Shown here: positions 3,604 to 43,736 of the stretch, in pieces
Numbering within the stretch: position 1 is the stretch's first letter
Layout: each line of letters opens with the position of its first letter
Origin: a virus
DNA: 64,000 nt
Virus record (IMG/VR): IMGVR_UViG_3300025634_000001
Location: 1 to 64,000 of that record
Strand: one strand, 5' to 3'
Program-made: the position numbers and the translations under genes
Notes under the pieces: generated by a model
What the model saw: the letters and a program-made list of their open reading frames with translations, nothing else
Database searches by the model: none
Told to the model about the DNA's origin: nothing

Positions 3604-4055
3604 GCTGCACCGTCCCCGTCAGCGTCCCAGCTGTGAACCAACAGCCCAGCTGCATAAGCCCAGCCGAGTTCGCTCTTGGGCTTGAACGTGATCTCGTCAT
3701 GGCACTCGCGGGCGAGCGGAATCGCGTTGGCAACGTCGGTGATAGAGCCGCCCCGTGCCCGCGTGAGGGGCTCGTGCAGGTCCACAGCCGGCCGGTTGCA
3801 TTCGGGTCGGCCGCATCCGCACATCACGGTCCCCTCGCGGCGGTCAGGCCAGAGCCGGTCTGCCATCGCGGCCCGTTCCCGGTTCTCTGCGCGCCGCTTG
3901 GCGCTGACCGGCTGCAGGCCTTTCCCCCTCGCCGCGCCTTCTCTAGGTGCGGAGCCGGTGAGCGGGGTGTGGCGTGCGGGGGGCTGTCCGGGCTGCAAGG
4001 GCTTGGTGCCGGGCAGCAGCCGCGAGGTACGGGCGAGCTGGGTGCGGCGGATCAT
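3600..4055 (-). CDS. HNH endonuclease-like protein (151 aa)
   Basis: It starts MIRRTQLARTSRLLPGTKPL, a basic N-terminus. Near residue 78 it has a CGCGRPECNRPAVDLHEP zinc-knuckle/His segment, then LARECHDEITF, consistent with a degenerate HNH (Cys pair, His, Asn, His). Phage HNH proteins act as recombination or packaging nucleases. Here it is embedded in the recombination operon between the ERF/exonuclease genes and the membrane-protein run, with ATGA overlaps on both sides. Confidence 0.7.
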   Translation of the reverse strand: MIRRTQLARTSRLLPGTKPLQPGQPPARHTPLTGSAPREGAARGKGLQPVSAKRRAENRERAAMADRLWPDRREGTVMCGCGRPECNRPAVDLHEPLTRARGGSITDVANAIPLARECHDEITFKPKSELGWAYAAGLLVHSWDADGDGAA

Positions 4056-16614: not shown

Positions 16615-17051
16615 GGTGTTTCGTCTCCTAGCTTCCACTCTGGCCGGTAGTGCGGATGGTCGTTCCAGGCGGCAGCCAGATGCTTCAGCATGTCCGTCCA
16701 GACGCCCCATGCGTTAAGTCCGGGGATGCCGTTGCGGGCTTCATACGTCAGGATCGCCCGCATGGCCGCGACCTCGCGCAGCGTACGGTGCGGATCGTGC
16801 AGGCTCAGCGGAATCATGCGCTCGCGGATGGCCTTGGATGCCCATCGCATAGCATCGGCCTGCCCGTGGCTGTAGGGCGTATCCCGGCAGGGGAAGGTCT
16901 TCCAGTCTTGTTCCTCGCGGAGAGCTTCAATCATGAAATGCTCCTCCATCGCGCCGACCGGATCAGAGGCTGCCCTGCTGGCGCACGCCTCAAGCTCGTC
17001 CAGGCGGGCTGCCAGGAACGCTGCCAGGGAATCTGCGACGGTCTCGGTCAT
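16611..17051 (-). CDS. DUF6221-like protein (146 aa)
   Basis: The layout FLAARLDELEACA near the N-terminus and HDPHRTLREVAAMRAILTYEARN in the middle matches the actinomycete DUF6221 pattern (HDPARVLREVEAKR). Such proteins are frequent in Streptomyces phages and integrative elements; function unknown. Coupled to both neighbours. Confidence 0.7.
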   Translation of the reverse strand: MTETVADSLAAFLAARLDELEACASRAASDPVGAMEEHFMIEALREEQDWKTFPCRDTPYSHGQADAMRWASKAIRERMIPLSLHDPHRTLREVAAMRAILTYEARNGIPGLNAWGVWTDMLKHLAAAWNDHPHYRPEWKLGDETP

Positions 17052-29909: not shown

Positions 29910-30600
29910 GCGCACATGCAGCGAGGACGACTGCGAACGACCGTCCCATGCGCGAGGACTGTGCGGAACGCATCATCAGCTGCGGCGCAAGGCCGAACTC
30001 AAGGAGTCGGGCCTTACGTGCGTCATGGACGACTGCGGCAAGCCGGTTCACAACCTGAAGCGGCGACTATGCGAGGGACACTACGGGCGGTACCTCAAGC
30101 ACGGCGACCCGTCGATCACCAGGCGGCCAGATCTCGGCAAGTCCCTCGCGGAGCGCTTCTGGGAGAAGGTCGACAAGAACGGCCCGGTCCCGCCGTACCG
30201 GCCGGAACTCGGCCCGTGCTGGATCTGGACTGCTGGACTTGTTAACGGCTATGGCCAGTTCATCATCATGCGCGGTGACCGGGGTCGGCCGATAGGTGCC
30301 CACCGTCAGGCGTGGCTACTCACGCGAGGCGAGATCCCTGATGACCTGGATCTTGATCACCTCTGCCGGGTGCACGCCTGCTGCAATCCGGACCATCTGG
30401 AGCCGGTCACCAACGAAGAGAACAACCGGCGCGGGATCAGCCCGTCTGCGATCAACGGACGCAAGACCTACTGTGACTACGATCATGAGTTCACCCCGGA
30501 GAACACCTACAGGCCCCCGAGGCGTCCGCACACACGCCAGTGCCGTAAGTGCGCGCGTCGCCGCGAACAGGAGCGCCGGCAAAGGCGGAAAGCGGCATGA
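29902..30600 (+). CDS. HNH endonuclease, start unclear (~232 aa)
   Basis: Two zinc knuckles (TCSEDDCERPSHARGLCGTHH; TCVMDDCGKPVHNLKRRLCEGHY), then an HNH_3 core (CWIWTAGLVNGYGQF, HRQAWLLTRGEI, DLDHLCRVHACCNPDHLEPV) and a C-terminal Cys pair (CRKCARRRE). No ATG or GTG lies just before the first knuckle; the frame opens with CTG 29902 and stays open back to an ATG at 29581 that runs under the antitoxin. It may therefore be fused, frameshifted, or truncated by the antitoxin segment. An internal ATG at 30025 would drop the first knuckle. Confidence 0.65.
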   Translation: MPERTCSEDDCERPSHARGLCGTHHQLRRKAELKESGLTCVMDDCGKPVHNLKRRLCEGHYGRYLKHGDPSITRRPDLGKSLAERFWEKVDKNGPVPPYRPELGPCWIWTAGLVNGYGQFIIMRGDRGRPIGAHRQAWLLTRGEIPDDLDLDHLCRVHACCNPDHLEPVTNEENNRRGISPSAINGRKTYCDYDHEFTPENTYRPPRRPHTRQCRKCARRREQERRQRRKAA

Positions 30601-34956: not shown

Positions 34957-35436
34957 ATGGCCCGTAAGCGGTCCCTCGCCACCCGCGAGTCAGACGCCCG
35001 CGCCCTGGAGTTCCGCCGCCGCGGCCTGTCCTATGAGCAGATCTCCGCCCAGATGGAATGGCGTTCCCCGTCCGCCGCCCACCAGGCCGTGCAGCGTGCC
35101 CTCGCCGACAGTGCCCGCGAGGCCGGCGAGGAAGTCCGCCAGATCGAAGCGGCAAGGCTGGACGAGCTCACCCGGACCCTGATGCGGGTGCTCGCCACCA
35201 AGCACTATGTCGTCTCGGTCGCCTCGGGAGTCGTCGCACGCCACCCCGAGACCGGGCAGCTGCTCCAGGACGACGCGCCGGTCATCCATGCTATCGCCGG
35301 GCTCGTGCGCATCAGCGAGCGGCGGTCGAAGCTCCTCGGCCTTGACGCACCGAAGCAGGTTGAGGTCCGCACAATTGACGCCATCGACTCCCGCCTCATC
35401 GAGCTTGCGGACCAGATGGCAGCAGTGGACGCCTGA
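34957..35436 (+). CDS. probable small terminase subunit (159 aa)
   Basis: GGGAGG upstream of ATG 34957. N-terminal HTH (EFRRRGLSYEQISAQMEWRSPSAAHQAVQRAL), then a helical oligomerisation region (EEVRQIEAARLDELTRTLMRVL, LVRISERRSKLLGLDAPKQVEV). This domain order and its place directly before the large subunit identify TerS-like function. Its 3' end overlaps the large-subunit frame by 32 bp. Confidence 0.75.
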   Translation: MARKRSLATRESDARALEFRRRGLSYEQISAQMEWRSPSAAHQAVQRALADSAREAGEEVRQIEAARLDELTRTLMRVLATKHYVVSVASGVVARHPETGQLLQDDAPVIHAIAGLVRISERRSKLLGLDAPKQVEVRTIDAIDSRLIELADQMAAVDA

Positions 35437-36904
35437 GCGGCGCCGCGAGTTCCTCCGCAGGCTAGACGCGGAGGAACGTGAACGGCTGCTCGCGGTCCTC
35501 GACGCCCCCGAGCCGGGACCGCCCTGGACGCAGATCGCCCGGCCCGAGCAGCTCCCGCCCGATGGCGACTGGCTGCTGTGGCTCTACATGGCCGGCCGAG
35601 GCGCTGGCAAGACCAGGGCCGCAGCGGAATGGGTTCACGGCCGGGCGCAGGCTTACCCCGGCTGCCGCATAGCGCTGGTAGGCCGTACCCCTGCAGACGT
35701 CCGTGACGTCATGATCGAGGGCGACTCCGGCATCCTGTCTGTCGCGAGGGATGCCCGGCCCGCCTACCAGCCGACGAAGCGGCGCCTGACGTGGCCGAAC
35801 GGGTCGATGGCCTACACCTACTCGGCTGAGGTTCCCGCGCAGCTCCGGGGCCCGCAGCATCACTACGCGTGGTGTGACGAGCCCGCGTCGTGGACTGACG
35901 CCCGCAAGGGCGACGTGCTGGACACCGCGTGGAACAACCTGATGCTGGGGCTGCGGCTCGGCCGGTCGCCGCGGTGCGCGGCCACGACCACGCCGAAGCC
36001 GCTGGCGCTCATCCGCACGCTGCTCGGCCGCCCGACGACGGTCGTGACCAAGGGCAGTACCTACGACAACCTCGACAACCTCGCGCCGTCGTTCCGCGCT
36101 GAAGTGCTGGCCGCGTACGAGGGAACCCGGATCGGCCGGCAGGAACTTCTCGGGGAACTGCTCGAGGACGTCGAGGGCGCGCTGTGGACGCTGGCGCTGC
36201 TCGACGGGAACCGCGTCACGTCCGCGCCGGACATGCGGCGCATCGTCGTCAGCATCGACCCCTCTGGCGGGTCGGGCCCTGACAATGACGAGCAGGGCAT
36301 CATCGTCGCCGGCCTCGGTGTCGACGGCGAGATCTACATTCTCGCGGACAGGTCATGCCGCCTCTCGCCGCACGGCTGGGCATCGCGTGCCGTCGGCGCA
36401 TGGCAGGAGTTCAGCGCCGACCGGATCGTGGCCGAGAAGAACTACGGCGGGGACATGGTGGAGTCCACCATCCGGCAGGTCTCCAAGGTGGTCCCCGTCA
36501 AGGTCATCACCGCCTCGCGTGGCAAGGTCCAGCGGGCCGAGCCGGTCGCGGCGGCTTACGAGCAGGGCCGCGTGCATCACGTCGGGGCGATGGCCAAGCT
36601 TGAGGACCAGCTGACGACGTGGACCCCCGCTGACGGGACGAGCCCGGACCGCCTAGACGCCTTGGTGTGGGCCGTGACAGAGCTGACGGACAACTTCAGT
36701 GCCGACGCCTGGATCGCATGGGCGAAACGCAAGGCCGAGGAAGCCGCCGCCGACCGGGACGCACCCCCGGAACCCCGCGCGAACGGCGCCGTGCCCGCCG
36801 CTGAGACGCCACCCGGACCAGACGCGGACGTTGTTCCCCTCACCCCGGCTGAAGCCCGCAGGGCGGCGAGGAACGCTGCGTTCGCGGCTGGCTCGTGGAC
36901 CTAG
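35405..36904 (+). CDS. terL: terminase large subunit (~499 aa)
   Basis: Walker A is GRGAGKT at 64-70, Walker B ends in CDEP (157-160) and the coupling segment is ATTTPKPL. The RNase-H-like nuclease has Asp285 (VVSIDPSGG), AEKNYGGDMV and DRLDALVWA. It powers DNA packaging and cuts concatemers. No ATG or GTG precedes the conserved region in frame after the TerS overlap; TTG 35405 is the best start, implying coupling to the small subunit. The longer upstream frame is out-of-frame noise over terS. Confidence 0.92.
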   Translation: MRTRWQQWTPERRREFLRRLDAEERERLLAVLDAPEPGPPWTQIARPEQLPPDGDWLLWLYMAGRGAGKTRAAAEWVHGRAQAYPGCRIALVGRTPADVRDVMIEGDSGILSVARDARPAYQPTKRRLTWPNGSMAYTYSAEVPAQLRGPQHHYAWCDEPASWTDARKGDVLDTAWNNLMLGLRLGRSPRCAATTTPKPLALIRTLLGRPTTVVTKGSTYDNLDNLAPSFRAEVLAAYEGTRIGRQELLGELLEDVEGALWTLALLDGNRVTSAPDMRRIVVSIDPSGGSGPDNDEQGIIVAGLGVDGEIYILADRSCRLSPHGWASRAVGAWQEFSADRIVAEKNYGGDMVESTIRQVSKVVPVKVITASRGKVQRAEPVAAAYEQGRVHHVGAMAKLEDQLTTWTPADGTSPDRLDALVWAVTELTDNFSADAWIAWAKRKAEEAAADRDAPPEPRANGAVPAAETPPGPDADVVPLTPAEARRAARNAAFAAGSWT

Positions 36905-37516: not shown

Positions 37517-40500
37517 ATGGGCGTCCGCACTCGCATCGGGAACGGCCTGACCCGCGTGGCGAAGACCTTCGGCACGTCGGTACCGGAGTCCTTCACGCAG
37601 GGTGAAGCCGCCAGCCAGATGACCCCGGCGTCCCCGTTCAGCCCCGGCACGCCCATCGGCCCGTACGACGGCTACGACCGGCACACCCGCCAGTTCAATT
37701 TCCAGACCGGCTACAACATCAGCACCCGGCCGCGGCTTCACGAGGCAGTGTCGTTCTCCACGCTCTCTGGCTTGGTAGAGTCTTACGATGTGGCTCAAAT
37801 ATGCTGCACGCCAAAGACTGAGATCATCACCAAGCGCGGCCTCGTCCCGATTGAGGACGTAGTTGTCGGCGATGAGGTAATCACGCACCTGGGCCGCTGG
37901 CGGCGCGTAACCGAGACGATGGTCAACAGGCCGCATACTCCCGTGCGGACGATGAAGACGAGCGCGTTCGAGGATCTGTCGGTCACCGGCAACCATCCTG
38001 TCTATGCGGTTGACTATGGCCTGAGTCAGACCAATAGGCGCGCAGCCAAGGGGATCGGCTGGGTTAGCGCCGACCGGTTGCGTCCGCGAGGGCCGAAGTC
38101 CCCCGGCAACCGCCGCTTTGACGGGCTTGTACTGCCCGCGCTCGCCTTCCCAGACGGATGCCCCGTACTCGACATAGGGACGATTGCCGGGGACGCATAC
38201 ACGGCCAACCCTGACGGAATGCTGGTCCGGACCCTCGGGGGACGGCTCACGCCGGTTCCCGCTCAGGTCAAGATGGACGCCGCCCTCGGCCGGCTGCTCG
38301 GCTGGTACCTGGCCGAGGGGTCGCAGGGCCATAACCGCGACGTACATTTCACCCTGGGTGCGGGCGAGCGCGATTACGCAGAGCAGATCGTCGCCGACGC
38401 CACCGCCGTTTTCGGCCTGGGTGGCACCATTAGTCCGGTGACCGGGGGCGCCAGCCTAGGCGTCCGCATCCACTCGACTATCCTCGCGTCGCTGTTCCGT
38501 TGCGGCACTGCGCACACCAAGCGGCTGCCGGAGTGGGCGTGGGCCGGCGGCCGGGAGTTCTTCACCGCCATGCTTGAGGCGTGGGCCCTCGGTGACGGCT
38601 GCCGCAGTATCCGCGAGGGCAAGGAAAACTGGTCACCCCGCATCATGGTGATCACTGTCTCGCGGGACCTGGCCTGGCAGATGCGGATGATCGCGATCGC
38701 CCTTGGCCTGTCTGCGTCCGTGGTCACCTCGCGGGGGCGCGACAAATACAAGTCCTCCGTCATCAACGGGCGAGAGCTTGCCAGTTCACCCATCTGCTAC
38801 CGGGTGGAATGGCGAGAGAAGCCGACCCGCTGGGGCCGTGAGTCCTTCGAGTTCGATGGCCGGTACCTCGCGACCGCGCTCGTCTCCGCCGAGCAGTCGG
38901 ACTACGACGGCCCGGTCTACAACCTCGAAGTCGAGGAAGACGAGTCCTACGTCACGACCGGCGGCACTGTCCACAACTGCATCTGGCATCGCATCGACTC
39001 CATCCGGTCCCTCGACTGGAAGCTGCTCCCGGCTGAGGGCTACAAGGGCGATGTCACCGACGCGATCCCGCTGGGCCTCGCCGCGCTGAAGAAGCCTGAC
39101 CGGAAGAACTACTTCAAGACGTGGCTCGCGAAGTACCTGTACGACATCCTCGCGTGGGACGCGGGAGCGATGTACCGGCTGCGGAACCGCGGCGGCCGGT
39201 GCATCGGCCTGCAGCCGGTTGACGGCCGGACCATCGCGCCGCTGCTCGACTACTGGGGCAACTCCCCCGACGAGCCCGCCGAGGCTTACGTCCAGTACGT
39301 CAACGGCCTGCCGTGGAACTGGCTGACCCGCGCGGACCTGATCTACGAGCCGTTCCGCCCGGTGACGAATTCCCCGTACGGGCGCCCGCCGATCGAGTCC
39401 GTGATCCTCAACGCGAACACGGACCTGCGGTTCCAGGCGTACTTTTTGCAGCGTTTCACCGCCGGGAACCTTCCCGCCGCGTTCGCGTCATCGCCTGAGT
39501 CGTGGTCACCGGACCAGATCGAGCAGTTCCAGAGCTACTGGGACGCCATGCTGTACGGCGACCAGGCCGGCAAGCACCAGATCAAGTGGATGCCGGGCGG
39601 CACCAAGATCGCCTGGTCTGATGAGAAGGACTTCTCGGACCAGTTCTCGCTGTTCATGATGCGGAAGACCTGCAGCGCCTATCACGTGGTGCCATCTGAC
39701 CTGGGCTTTACCGAGTCAGTGAACCGCTCGTCTGGCGAGTCGCAGGCCGACGTGCAGCACCGTGTCGGCGACCTGCCGCTGATGGAGCATGTCGAGGAAA
39801 TCGTCTCGATGTTCCTGCAGGACGACCTGGGCCTCCCGCTGCGGCAGGAGTTCGACCGCGGCGAGGAGCAGGTTGACCAGTACGCCCAGGCGCAGGCCGA
39901 TGTGCTGTACATGGACCGCGCGGTGGTGGGCTCGTCCGAGATCCGGGAGATCCGCTACGGCCTGACCGACACGACGCCGGTCCCGCGCTCGTTCTTCACG
40001 ACCCGCGCCGGCCCCATCCCGCTGTCGTCGCTGATGGCTGTTGCCGGGGCAGTGGACCCGGTGACCGCCGCCCCGGAACCGGGCGCCCCGCTGCCTCACC
40101 AGGTGTTCGAGGAGGCTCCGGGTGTCGCCCCGAACCCGCCGCTGTACGGGCAGCCGCTCGCGGAGGAGATCTACGGCCCGTCGGCTATCCCGGCGCACAC
40201 GGAGACGCAATCCACGATGCCGGTCGCCAAGGAAGGCGAAGGCGCGGGGATCACGGCGGAGACGGGGATCTACAGCTACGACCTCGACGGCAAGGACGAC
40301 GACGAACCGCGCACGGCAGAGACCAGTCTCCTGAAGCCGGCCGACTCGCAGGCGGTCATCAAGTCTGAGCTCGCTGCTTTCCGCCGCTTTGAGCGCACCC
40401 GGCGCAAGTCTGGTGAGTGGCGGGACTTCAAGTTCAGTGCCGTCGCTGACGTGCAGGCCCACAACCTCAACGACGACGGCAGGCTCGCTGTCCGCAAGGC

Positions 40501-40594
40501 TACGGGTGAGGTGGCCGTCGCGGGGCTCGCGGTGATGGCTGCGGACACGGGACGAGTGCTGATGCTTCAGCGAGCGCTAGATCCCGAGGATTAG
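37517..40594 (+). CDS. portal protein interrupted by an intein (1025 aa precursor)
   Basis: The exteins form a SPP1/HK97-type portal: TRPRLHEAVSFSTLSGLVESY before the intein, then CIWHRIDSIRSLDWKL, LLDYWGNSP, TRADLIYEPFRPVTNSPYGRPPIE and SAYHVVPSDLGFT after it. The intein covers residues 96-487; the spliced product would be 633 aa. The last ~25 residues (VAVAGLAVMAADTGRVLMLQ) are the first strands of a NUDIX domain whose remainder starts the gene at 41156, the frame being broken by the reverse gene between them. The portal is the dodecameric DNA gate of the head. Confidence 0.9.
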   Translation: MGVRTRIGNGLTRVAKTFGTSVPESFTQGEAASQMTPASPFSPGTPIGPYDGYDRHTRQFNFQTGYNISTRPRLHEAVSFSTLSGLVESYDVAQICCTPKTEIITKRGLVPIEDVVVGDEVITHLGRWRRVTETMVNRPHTPVRTMKTSAFEDLSVTGNHPVYAVDYGLSQTNRRAAKGIGWVSADRLRPRGPKSPGNRRFDGLVLPALAFPDGCPVLDIGTIAGDAYTANPDGMLVRTLGGRLTPVPAQVKMDAALGRLLGWYLAEGSQGHNRDVHFTLGAGERDYAEQIVADATAVFGLGGTISPVTGGASLGVRIHSTILASLFRCGTAHTKRLPEWAWAGGREFFTAMLEAWALGDGCRSIREGKENWSPRIMVITVSRDLAWQMRMIAIALGLSASVVTSRGRDKYKSSVINGRELASSPICYRVEWREKPTRWGRESFEFDGRYLATALVSAEQSDYDGPVYNLEVEEDESYVTTGGTVHNCIWHRIDSIRSLDWKLLPAEGYKGDVTDAIPLGLAALKKPDRKNYFKTWLAKYLYDILAWDAGAMYRLRNRGGRCIGLQPVDGRTIAPLLDYWGNSPDEPAEAYVQYVNGLPWNWLTRADLIYEPFRPVTNSPYGRPPIESVILNANTDLRFQAYFLQRFTAGNLPAAFASSPESWSPDQIEQFQSYWDAMLYGDQAGKHQIKWMPGGTKIAWSDEKDFSDQFSLFMMRKTCSAYHVVPSDLGFTESVNRSSGESQADVQHRVGDLPLMEHVEEIVSMFLQDDLGLPLRQEFDRGEEQVDQYAQAQADVLYMDRAVVGSSEIREIRYGLTDTTPVPRSFFTTRAGPIPLSSLMAVAGAVDPVTAAPEPGAPLPHQVFEEAPGVAPNPPLYGQPLAEEIYGPSAIPAHTETQSTMPVAKEGEGAGITAETGIYSYDLDGKDDDEPRTAETSLLKPADSQAVIKSELAAFRRFERTRRKSGEWRDFKFSAVADVQAHNLNDDGRLAVRKATGEVAVAGLAVMAADTGRVLMLQRALDPED
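37802..38977 (+). other. intein with LAGLIDADG homing endonuclease (392 aa)
   Basis: Cys1 opens block A (CCTPKTEIITKRG...VVVGDEV). Block B has TGNHPVYAV (T-x-x-H). Two dodecapeptide-like motifs (GRLLGWYLAEGS and FTAMLEAWALGDG) mark a LAGLIDADG endonuclease. Block F is VYNLEVEEDESYVTT and block G is GTVHN followed by Cys+1. All splicing residues are present, so self-excision should join VAQI to CIWH within the conserved portal core. Confidence 0.9.
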
Positions 40595-41127
40595 CGGCCA
40601 TCGGGTGCCGTCGTCCCCGCGAGGATCCCGGCCCGCACGGCTGCGTACCGGTCGACTGGCGGCCGGCGCACTGGCACCGACAGCTCCAGGATGACCGACT
40701 CCCATTCGGCGCCCTGCTCTACGGCCTCGGCGGGTACTTCGCGGGAACGGCAGGGCGCATCGACGTCATCGGCGCCCGGGTAGAAGAACCGGTCCATGTA
40801 CATCAGCGCCTCGGCGGGCAGCGCAAGCGGAATGTATCCCTGCTGGGCAACGGTGTCGATCAGCTTGTGCCGCATGTCGTGCCGGATGTGCTCGCGGTAT
40901 GCGTCGATCGCCCACTCGTGCTTGAGAGCCGCCTGCCGGATATGCAGGACGCTGTCGCTGAAGGACAGTGCTACCTCGGCGATGAGTCGGGCCTGATGCT
41001 CGGCCACGCTGATGCCCTGGAGCCACGCTGCCATCTGGACGGCCTCGGTAACGCTGTGGGCGCGCTGCCTGATGTGGGCGCACTTCTCCTGGTCCGACAT
41101 ATGAGGGTACGGAATCTCGGGTGCCAT
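40591..41127 (-). CDS. reverse-strand cassette gene inside a NUDIX domain (178 aa)
   Basis: Starts at ATG 41127, 7 bp behind TACGAT; the stop TAA overlaps the portal TAG. Helical N-terminal half (QEKCAHIRQRAHSVTEAVQMAAWLQGISVAEHQARLIAEVALSF) and a C-terminal part with PAEALMYMDRFFYPGAD. Unknown function. It lies exactly between the two halves of a NUDIX sequence, so it is an insertion rather than an ancestral gene of the operon. Confidence 0.7.
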   Translation of the reverse strand: MAPEIPYPHMSDQEKCAHIRQRAHSVTEAVQMAAWLQGISVAEHQARLIAEVALSFSDSVLHIRQAALKHEWAIDAYREHIRHDMRHKLIDTVAQQGYIPLALPAEALMYMDRFFYPGADDVDAPCRSREVPAEAVEQGAEWESVILELSVPVRRPPVDRYAAVRAGILAGTTAPDGR

Positions 41128-41134
41128 GCCCTGA

Positions 41135-41140
41135 ATCGTA
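41135..41140 (-). promoter_or_regulatory. -10-like TACGAT for reverse-strand gene
   Basis: Minus-strand TACGAT, then TCAGGGC and ATG 41127. Confidence 0.55.
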
Positions 41141-41155
41141 GCCACGGGAGGGCGC

Positions 41156-42700
41156 ATGTCCGACCCTGCTGCGGGCAAGTTCGAATTCGCCGGCGGGCAC
41201 ATCGAAGGCGCGGAATCCCCTCGCGCCGCAGCGATAAGGGAATGGCAAGAGGAGACGGGCCTCCCGTTTGTCGATGGCGAGTTCACTGGCTCCTGGGTAT
41301 CCGCTAACGGCATCTACGAGGGCTTCGTCTACACGATCCCCCGCGAGGCCGACCTTGACATTTTCGCCCGCCAGCTCGGCACCGACCCGGACGGCGACGT
41401 AACGGGATCGGAAACGATCGCCTGGTGGGATCCGGCGACTCTGCCCGGTAACGCCGCCGTCCGGCCTGAGTTGCTACAGGACATCGACGCCGTGATGGCT
41501 GCTCTCGGCTGCGATGAGGGGGCAGCCGAGGACTGCTGCGGTGCTGAGTGCTGTGCCGGAGGGTGCTGTAACGGCTCGTCCGGATGCCAGTGCGGGACAG
41601 GCGCGACACCCGCCGAAGGTGACGAAGCCACCTGCCCGTGCGGGACGCCGGTCGTGTACGACGAGATGAACGGCTGGCAGCACGCCGACGGCTCCATCAG
41701 CCACGATGACGGCGAGTCCGTCAGCGACAAGATGGCGGCGATAGCCAAGGCTGGTGGTAGCAGCGCAGTCCCAAAAGGTGACCCGGACGACTGGTCCGGC
41801 ATCTGGGCCAGGACGCACGCGCGCCGGGAGAAGCTGCTCGCCGGGCACGAGAAAGCCGTCCTCGCCGCGTGGAACGACCTCGCGGGGGACCTGAGCCCGC
41901 GCGTTCTCGTCCGCCAGTTCAAGGCCGACGCGGGACTGGTCGCCAAGCTGGCCGACCCGGACCGGCCATGGTGGAAGGACCGCGGCAGGGACGCCGCGCT
42001 CGCGTGGCTGACCGCGATGCAGCAGCGGAAGGGCTGGGCCGCTCTCGTCGCCGCGATCGAGGCCGCCATCGCCGACGGGATGGCCGAGGGCGAAGCTGAC
42101 TCGCTCGCGGTCGCCGCTGACCGGCAGGGCGTCAAGGGCTTCCCCGTCGCCGCCGCTTTCACCGCTGCGGCGCAGGCGCTCCAGGGTGACCCGGACGTAG
42201 GCCAGAAGGCACAGGAGACCGCGCAGGGCATCCTCGGAGGCGTCGCGGCGGCCCTGTCCGTGACACTGGCGGACGGCGCCGGCAACGGCTCCAGCGACGC
42301 CGAGATGGCCGATGCGGTCACCGGCACCGTGACGGGCCCGGACGTGGCCCCGGTGAAGTACGGGCTCGCTGACGCGCTCTGGGCGGCTGCCGGCGCCGGG
42401 CTGACACGGCTCATCGGCAAGCTGCTGACGGGCACCCCGGCTCCAGCGGGAACAACCACGGAGACCGGTCCGGCTGCCCCGCCAGTTCCGCCGCCGGACG
42501 AGCCGGAACCCGGCCTCGCGATGATCAACTGGGTGTGCGAGGGCGGCAACCCGTGCGTTACCTGCCAGGACAACCAGGATGGCAGTCCGTATGCGCCGCA
42601 GGACGTGCCGGCCTATCTGGCGCATAACCACTGCATGTGCGCCCTGTACCTGGCAAGCGACGTTCCGTCATCGTTCTTCGCCGCCTACCTGCTGAACTGA
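41156..42700 (+). CDS. NUDIX/MuF-like minor head protein (514 aa)
   Basis: GGGAGG precedes ATG 41156. Residues ~4-120 hold a NUDIX domain lacking its first strands: the box GHIEGAESPRAAAIREWQEETGL is intact. A Cys-rich linker (CCGAECCAGGCCNGSSGCQCG, then CPCGTPV) follows. The C-terminal ~300 residues are the MuF-type head protein (WARTHARREKLLAGHEK, DRGRDAALAWLTAMQQRKG, ending CVTCQDNQDGSPYAPQDVPAYLAHNHCMCALYL). MuF proteins join the portal inside the head. The NUDIX part may be inactive or act with the portal tail. Confidence 0.8.
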   Translation: MSDPAAGKFEFAGGHIEGAESPRAAAIREWQEETGLPFVDGEFTGSWVSANGIYEGFVYTIPREADLDIFARQLGTDPDGDVTGSETIAWWDPATLPGNAAVRPELLQDIDAVMAALGCDEGAAEDCCGAECCAGGCCNGSSGCQCGTGATPAEGDEATCPCGTPVVYDEMNGWQHADGSISHDDGESVSDKMAAIAKAGGSSAVPKGDPDDWSGIWARTHARREKLLAGHEKAVLAAWNDLAGDLSPRVLVRQFKADAGLVAKLADPDRPWWKDRGRDAALAWLTAMQQRKGWAALVAAIEAAIADGMAEGEADSLAVAADRQGVKGFPVAAAFTAAAQALQGDPDVGQKAQETAQGILGGVAAALSVTLADGAGNGSSDAEMADAVTGTVTGPDVAPVKYGLADALWAAAGAGLTRLIGKLLTGTPAPAGTTTETGPAAPPVPPPDEPEPGLAMINWVCEGGNPCVTCQDNQDGSPYAPQDVPAYLAHNHCMCALYLASDVPSSFFAAYLLN

Positions 42701-43423
42701 CTAGCCCCTGGGGATGAGCTGGTCAACGCTGACGCCGTGCTCGCCGAGCCATTCCAGGACGCTGAACACGGTCCGGGGCGTGATGTCGAATGATCCCCAG
42801 CTGGCGTTCGCCTGATCCTGGGCGCGGAGGATTTCACTGACGAGCTCGTGGCGGCTCAGGAATCGCGCCGGACCGTAATCCTCCAGCCCCCACTGATCGC
42901 CATTCAGGGTCAGCGGCGCGATCTCCACCGACTCATACATGACCGGAGCGCCGAAGCGGCTCGGCGGCAGGCTGATGTCGGCTCCCGGATAGAGGGTGTC
43001 CCGGCTGAAGCGGACCTCTGCGGCGATCTCGGCGTACTTCACCGGGTGGCGGCGCAGGAACCACGGGATGAAGTAGACGCGCGGCACGATCGTGAGGATG
43101 TCGAGCGGCAGCCAGAACAGCAGATACCGGCTGAGGGGCTTCTGGAGCCACGCCGCGTGCCATTCGTCGGCCGTCTTCTTCAGGTGCTGCCACCCGCTGG
43201 CGGGCACCTTGACTGACGCCCGTTGCTTCTCGGTAACAGTCCGCCCGGACAGGATGCTGGTTGTGAACCGCAGCATCATCTCCCCGAACGCCCGGTCTCG
43301 CATCTCCTCCACCTGGAGCAAGTCCCGGCTGTAGCTGCCCACGTAGCCGAACTGCTTCGAGGTGAGTTGCATCTGCCGCTGGAAATAGCCCGGCATGCTG
43401 AGAAGCCGGTTCTCTTCGCTCAT
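42701..43423 (-). CDS. reverse-strand cassette gene (240 aa)
   Basis: ATG 43423 lies 6 bp behind CATCAT; the stop TAG directly abuts the TGA of the MuF gene. It has a strongly hydrophobic stretch (YLLFWLPLDILTIVPRVYFIPWFL) near residues 100-125, and a C-terminal helical region. Not recognised. Opposite orientation and own promoter mark it as a moron-type gene, perhaps membrane-associated and expressed from the prophage. Confidence 0.65.
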   Translation of the reverse strand: MSEENRLLSMPGYFQRQMQLTSKQFGYVGSYSRDLLQVEEMRDRAFGEMMLRFTTSILSGRTVTEKQRASVKVPASGWQHLKKTADEWHAAWLQKPLSRYLLFWLPLDILTIVPRVYFIPWFLRRHPVKYAEIAAEVRFSRDTLYPGADISLPPSRFGAPVMYESVEIAPLTLNGDQWGLEDYGPARFLSRHELVSEILRAQDQANASWGSFDITPRTVFSVLEWLGEHGVSVDQLIPRG

Positions 43424-43429
43424 CCCGCA

Positions 43430-43435
43430 ATGATG
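43430..43435 (-). promoter_or_regulatory. -10-like CATCAT for reverse-strand gene
   Basis: Minus-strand CATCAT, then TGCGGG and ATG 43423. Confidence 0.45.
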
Positions 43436-43441
43436 CCCGAC

Positions 43442-43711
43442 CTACCTGCTGTCCTGACTGGCCTTCGGCTTCCTGCCGCCGCCCGCACCCTGGCCGGGCA
43501 GCGACGCTTTCCATGCCCTGATCTCGCCCATGCGTTCCGGCAGCCAGCCGGGGATGGCTTTCTCGTCGTCTTCGTCTTCGCCGGTCCACGCGTCGGGCTC
43601 GGGGAACGGCGTGGCCGTGTCGCGGTATCGGTTGCGCCACGTGGCGACGAGGTGGCGACTAGCGCCGAGCCTGCGGCCGATGGCGGCCTGTCCGAGGTAA
43701 CGGGCGGTCAT
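43442..43711 (-). CDS. small HTH protein in reverse cassette (89 aa)
   Basis: ATG 43711 with GGGAG at 8 bp; GTG 43720 is less likely. TARYLGQAAIGRRLGASRHLVATWRNRYRDTATPFPEPDAW is a short HTH of the type seen in phage transcription regulators, followed by WLPERMGEIRAWKASLPG. It could repress its own cassette; a TGTCGCAAAGTTTTA repeat lies immediately upstream. Confidence 0.7.
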   Translation of the reverse strand: MTARYLGQAAIGRRLGASRHLVATWRNRYRDTATPFPEPDAWTGEDEDDEKAIPGWLPERMGEIRAWKASLPGQGAGGGRKPKASQDSR

Positions 43712-43736
43712 GGTTGTCACTCCCTGAGTTTACTTC

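Follow-up and report, generated by a model that had tools for sequence, protein, structure and literature searches.

Split genes in phages are known mainly as single cases that are due to a homing endonuclease. Described genes-in-pieces include nrdA/mobE of Aeh1, the topoisomerase genes 60/39 of T4, split by mobA, and gene 43 of phage 25 (PMC2988022). According to the available part of a second report, Nudix domains in phages occur fused to the portal, to MuF, or to the prohead protease, and packaging in the head and a role involving ADP-ribose-type signals are predicted for them (PMC9503650). An engineered split of E. coli MutT, into residues 1-95 and 96-129, works in vivo (PMC11460165). Both portal-NUDIX-MuF fusions and phage genes split by endonucleases are already known. 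We did not find described in the open-access literature a virion enzyme domain that is split at one loop in several haplotypes with differing passengers.

The closest known kind of arrangement to the one analyzed here is that of the phage genes-in-pieces, exemplified by Aeh1 nrdA/mobE. We analyzed a stretch of 64,000 nucleotides (hereafter, the window) that is part of a 105.7 kb virus record; the virus and its relatives are soil phages, probably with actinobacterial hosts. As in genes-in-pieces, two ORFs, each with its own start and stop, stand on either side of an inserted gene where relatives have one uninterrupted, conserved phage gene, and both pieces are intact ORFs under selection. Unlike in genes-in-pieces, the insert in the window is an orphan reverse gene and not a homing endonuclease, the passenger differs from haplotype to haplotype, and the cut falls within one small domain of a head protein. 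The fused relatives of the window have the same domain combination as the fusions in the available part of PMC9503650, but the Nudix domains described there are intact and that of the window is split. Like split MutT, the NUDIX fold of the window is encoded as two chains. The MutT cut lies about 35 residues past the NUDIX box, resembling a natural second site in two relatives (L010 and L076, below), whereas the cut in the window is natural and not a laboratory design, and lies upstream of the box, after strand 2 and ahead of strand 3. The locus is also like phage morons in having an additional gene in the opposite orientation among late structural genes, except that morons sit between intact genes and the gene in the window is inside a domain.

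The NUDIX domain of the window is cut between the end of the portal gene and the next gene on the + strand. A preliminary description of this DNA had proposed such a cut, and the coordinates, the NUDIX box, and a partial Pfam match agree with it. The features, with their positions in the window, are:

35207-36904, terminase, upstream of the portal gene
37517-40594, + strand, portal gene, with the beginning of the NUDIX domain at its C terminus (Pfam Phage_portal, E 1.6e-13; PHROG 2662 portal, E 3e-37)
37802-38977, + strand, portal intein with a LAGLIDADG-like endonuclease (AQI/CCTPKTE...VHN/C; Hint_2 and LAGLIDADG_3 matches), separate from the split
40505-40591, + strand, end of the portal gene, encoding NUDIX strands 1 and 2 (the N-terminal part of the domain); of 84 distinct related loci, 78 have it contiguous with the NUDIX box, strands mapped on the AF2 model of L146
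40592-41155, insert from the stop codon to the new start codon, in the loop between NUDIX strands 2 and 3; missing in fused relatives, with unrelated DNA in its place in six other split haplotypes
40591-41127, - strand, passenger gene of 178 aa with no detectable family, start ATG at 41127 and end at 40591
41146-41152, + strand, ribosome-binding site GGGAGGG for the new start, read directly from the sequence
41156-42700, + strand, remainder of the NUDIX domain and MuF-like head protein, new start ATG at 41156
41195-41263, + strand, intact NUDIX box GHIEGAESPRAAAIREWQEETGL

The two parts of the domain are on separate chains. The portal ORF (37517-40594) ends with the residues ...GLAVMAADTGRVLMLQRALDPED*, with the TAG stop at 40592-40594. 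The + strand ORF from the ATG at 41156 starts with MSDPAAGKFEFAGGHIEGAESPRAAAIREWQEETGL and includes a complete NUDIX box (GX5EX7REUXEEXGU). The Pfam NUDIX match to this ORF (E 6e-10) begins only at position 26 of the 134 positions of the model, indicating that strands 1 and 2 are absent from it. These strands sit on the portal, so that no single chain in the window holds a complete alpha-beta-alpha NUDIX fold, and a complete NUDIX domain within 41156-42700 was not encountered. The downstream half has the new start that had been proposed for it, with GGGAGGG at 41146-41152 ahead of the ATG at 41156. The downstream gene is labeled MuF solely from its location, a terminal Cys pattern, and a PHROG match that is weak (E 0.079).

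The split is not an artefact of assembly. A separate contig (L002) was 100% identical to the window across 11,217 nt, and six other haplotypes, on other contigs, were split at the same place.

The ancestral state was most likely fused. Searches with the NUDIX C-half and N-half yielded more than 150 viral loci and 23 loci in bacterial genomes, mostly of Actinomycetota. The portal-NUDIX reading frame was continuous in 78 of the 84 distinct related loci, and the cultured Arthrobacter phages Sonali and Mufasa8 also had the fused form, annotated as portal or as a fusion of portal and MuF-like protein; it is on these loci and phages that we base the ancestral state. The fused rows read ...TGRVLMLQRAL-xxx-DPAAGxWEFPGGH... 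in a single frame, with a nearly constant 45 nt separating the two motifs. Some of the fused genes end after the NUDIX domain and others extend into the MuF-like part. The suggestion that an ancestral fusion had been broken (DPED-DPAAG) was thus right in substance, and a search for phages with an uninterrupted portal-NUDIX(-MuF) protein found many. We set aside matches in phage Gilgamesh and Pam4, in which NUDIX occurs in other head-gene contexts and neither of which is split within the match.

The same NUDIX loop was split in seven haplotypes, with seven different inserts:

Window (identical to L002), a reverse gene for a 178-aa orphan
L005 (the same as L006), a reverse gene for a DUF6221 protein (E 4.5e-14)
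L007, 360 nt with a short reverse ORF
L009 (the same as L008, L031, and L063), a forward gene for a 107-aa Cys-rich protein, its own ATG overlapping the portal stop
L014, a pair of reverse genes, one of them a member of phrog_8937
L055, a forward gene for a 97-aa protein
L154, a reverse gene for an HNH_3 endonuclease, exactly in the gap

Every split portal carried an insert, and a portal that ended at the same residue without a cassette was not encountered. The new start was always M-x-DPAAGK, and in most of the split haplotypes a purine-rich site preceded the ATG. Among these inserts, a homing endonuclease, as in genes-in-pieces, was present only in L154.

We considered whether the two parts might be rejoined, by an intron containing the reverse gene, ribosome bypass, read-through of the stop, or protein splicing. 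The two halves in the window share one frame (570 nt from DPED to DPAAG), and these phages often contain inteins and homing endonucleases; both observations would be consistent with rejoining. However, the halves were out of frame in L005 and L009, and the seven kinds of inserts had no common ends beyond the coding sequence. We found no intein motifs at the two ends and no Rfam match to a catalytic intron RNA up to E 1 in the region of the window; Rfam searches of L010 and L076 were also empty. In addition, every downstream half begins at an ATG of its own, which mostly follows a ribosome-binding site. We believe that rejoining is very improbable. Insert lengths modulo three differed among the haplotypes, indicating that the in-frame 570 bp in the window is a coincidence and not the signal for which it had been taken at first.

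The passenger in the window is very likely a real gene, because its GC content by codon position (0.73/0.45/0.84) has the same pattern as that of the neighboring genes. There was no significant match to it in Pfam, PHROG, or NCBIfam and none in phage records, and comparisons with viral contigs and all of the fetched loci gave matches from its own virus only. A scan for promoters and terminators found one weak promoter-like site within the gene and no terminator. Two more reverse orphan genes (240 and 92 aa) are located at 42701-43720, after the MuF-like gene and ahead of the late genes that follow, and had no relatives among the fetched loci outside their own virus. Families of passengers occupy other sites in these phages too, as there is a DUF6221-like gene (16632-17033; 29% identical to the passenger in L005) and an HNH gene (30217-30504; related to the passenger in L154) elsewhere in the window.

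The split predates the passengers. In a tree of NUDIX-C halves, five of the split haplotypes formed one clade (96/93), and these five have unrelated inserts. The gene now in the gap of the window is therefore probably not the one that broke the domain, contrary to the preliminary description. The portal tree (628 columns) was different: the five related split rows were not a clade, forcing them together was rejected (AU p 0.00066), and there were 5 label changes with L154 included. Split rows paired with fused portals, for instance L014 with L146 (100/98) and L005 and L007 with L013 (100/99). When the portal pairings were compared with the NUDIX-C tree, L014+L098 (p 6e-5) and L005+L007+L013 (p 5e-44) were rejected and the pairing of the window with L010 was not (p 0.28). 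Based on the discordance between the two trees, we conclude that the NUDIX-C allele in its split form has passed from one portal background to another.

Pairs of close relatives point to where the passengers were exchanged. The flanks of L005 and L007 were ~92% identical, their inserts were unrelated, and similarity returned at the ATG, which, judging from the sequences, we take to be a clean replacement of the passenger. L063 and L055 were identical for 6,173 nt and then diverged within the N-half, 57 nt short of its end, a crossover that could be an assembly join, as the L055 contig stops 126 nt past the ATG. From these two patterns, the conserved coding sequence of the N-half is the likely region of crossover.

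This distribution could also result from several independent insertions into the loop instead of a single old split followed by turnover of passengers. The NUDIX-C half of L154 was outside the five-haplotype clade, and a single origin of the split was found in only 2% of bootstrap trees, making L154 a probable second independent split. The portals of the five other haplotypes were not a clade, and in-frame pieces (below) have also entered the loop. In contrast, the single clade of five NUDIX-C halves (96/93) and the exchange of passengers between L005 and L007 on a common split background argue for one old split, and we consider independent insertions to be rather unlikely. The one landing event of the preliminary description is better replaced by a recurrently occupied site, with the probable second split in L154.

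Given an ancestor of L005 and L007 that was already split, both halves have been under purifying selection after the split. In the last 30 codons of the N-half, all 9 nucleotide differences between L005 and L007 were synonymous and none was a replacement (P about 2e-5 versus no selection). In the C-half (115 codons), five of the 23 nucleotide differences were replacements (dN/dS of 0.10). Among five related haplotypes, dN/dS ranged from 0.04 to 0.19 for the N-halves and from 0.10 to 0.22 for the C-halves; values with L154, the C-half of which was not aligned across an indel, were higher. A role in the portal could by itself be the cause of the conservation of the N-half.

These findings bear on whether the split simply destroyed the NUDIX enzyme, leaving the N-half as no more than a C-terminal element of the portal and the C-half to lead into the MuF-like protein, with no reassembly. 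Such a fate would be in keeping with the many fused relatives in which the ORF ends soon past NUDIX and the MuF gene is separate anyway. However, strands 1 and 2 and a complete NUDIX box were retained in all seven split haplotypes, and replacement changes in either half have been strongly selected against since the split, so that we think loss of the enzyme is quite unlikely.

The cut is in a loop that tolerates insertion. For the fused homologue L146, AF2 gave a model (41 sequences) with a pLDDT of 91.7 that was NUDIX-like by Foldseek. In this model, strands are at residues 36-43 and 49-53, and the cut, at residue 58-60, is within the loop at 54-69, which leads from the second of these strands to the one that precedes the NUDIX helix. 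The C-half of the window folded alone gave a pLDDT of 44, from an alignment of only five sequences. Tolerance of insertion is indicated by L159, L172, L173, L182, and L186, in all of which this loop carries about 40 extra residues in frame. A short CPCGxP...HADGSISHDDGESVSDKM motif is in-frame in this loop of the same loci, near 4001, and is found in the window at 41633-41734, past the NUDIX domain; it is perhaps a small in-frame mobile piece.

In two relatives the NUDIX domain is broken at another place, about 32 residues past the NUDIX box (L010:2196-3410 and L076:4705-5037). The gene in this second loop is a LAGLIDADG gene in L010 and an HNH gene in L076, and the two breaks have in common the 5' sequence NDRVxDRxGR* and a hairpin-like CCGAACCTG...CAGGTC. 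With moderate support, the NUDIX halves of L010 and L076 are the closest relatives of the split clade. Inteins also occur in these genes. The boundaries of the one in the portal of the window (37802-38977) were set against the intein-free portals of L005 and L010, the L009 portal has a different intein at another site (NAN/CYSDD...WCAN/TD), and the MuF-like gene of L076 (L076:5038-7620) contains an intein-like stretch (GPHC...GIIVSNC).

Based on the trees, the inserts, and the selection on both halves, we believe, with a probability of roughly two in three, that a single-chain portal-NUDIX-MuF-like protein is made as two chains in these phages, that the loop is a hot spot of insertion at which passengers are exchanged, and that the halves reassemble. 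A gene would once have entered the surface loop that links strand 2 of the NUDIX fold to strand 3, and the downstream half would then have gained its own ribosome-binding site and ATG. The passenger would have been exchanged repeatedly via recombination in the conserved flanking NUDIX coding sequence, and the NUDIX-C half would have relocated to different portal backgrounds. We infer that the first cut may have been made by a homing endonuclease whose gene was later replaced by ordinary passengers, which fits the HNH gene in the gap of L154 and the endonuclease genes at the second loop of L010 and L076. In the spread of the allele, co-conversion would account for the movement of NUDIX-C.

In the virion, the portal would supply strands 1 and 2 and the MuF-like protein the catalytic box and the remainder of the domain. 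The halves would reassemble non-covalently in the procapsid, the meeting place of portal and MuF-type proteins, and the virion would carry a functional NUDIX enzyme as packaged cargo. Because of the selection, the intact boxes, the insertion-tolerant loop, and the working split MutT, it is likely that the halves reassemble in the phage. By analogy with the described fusions, packaging of NUDIX in the head and ADP-ribose-type defense signals as its target may carry over to the family of the window. More tentatively, and with some doubt on our part, the NUDIX halves might serve as a non-covalent enzymatic latch that joins the portal and the MuF-like protein, with the loop as a stable cargo slot, kept by selection, for the trade of accessory genes at no loss of the enzyme.

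The split in the window is a natural counterpart of the engineered split MutT. It makes testable whether one domain can exist as two virion proteins held together by folding alone, and whether essential structural genes can be landing sites for the exchange of genes.
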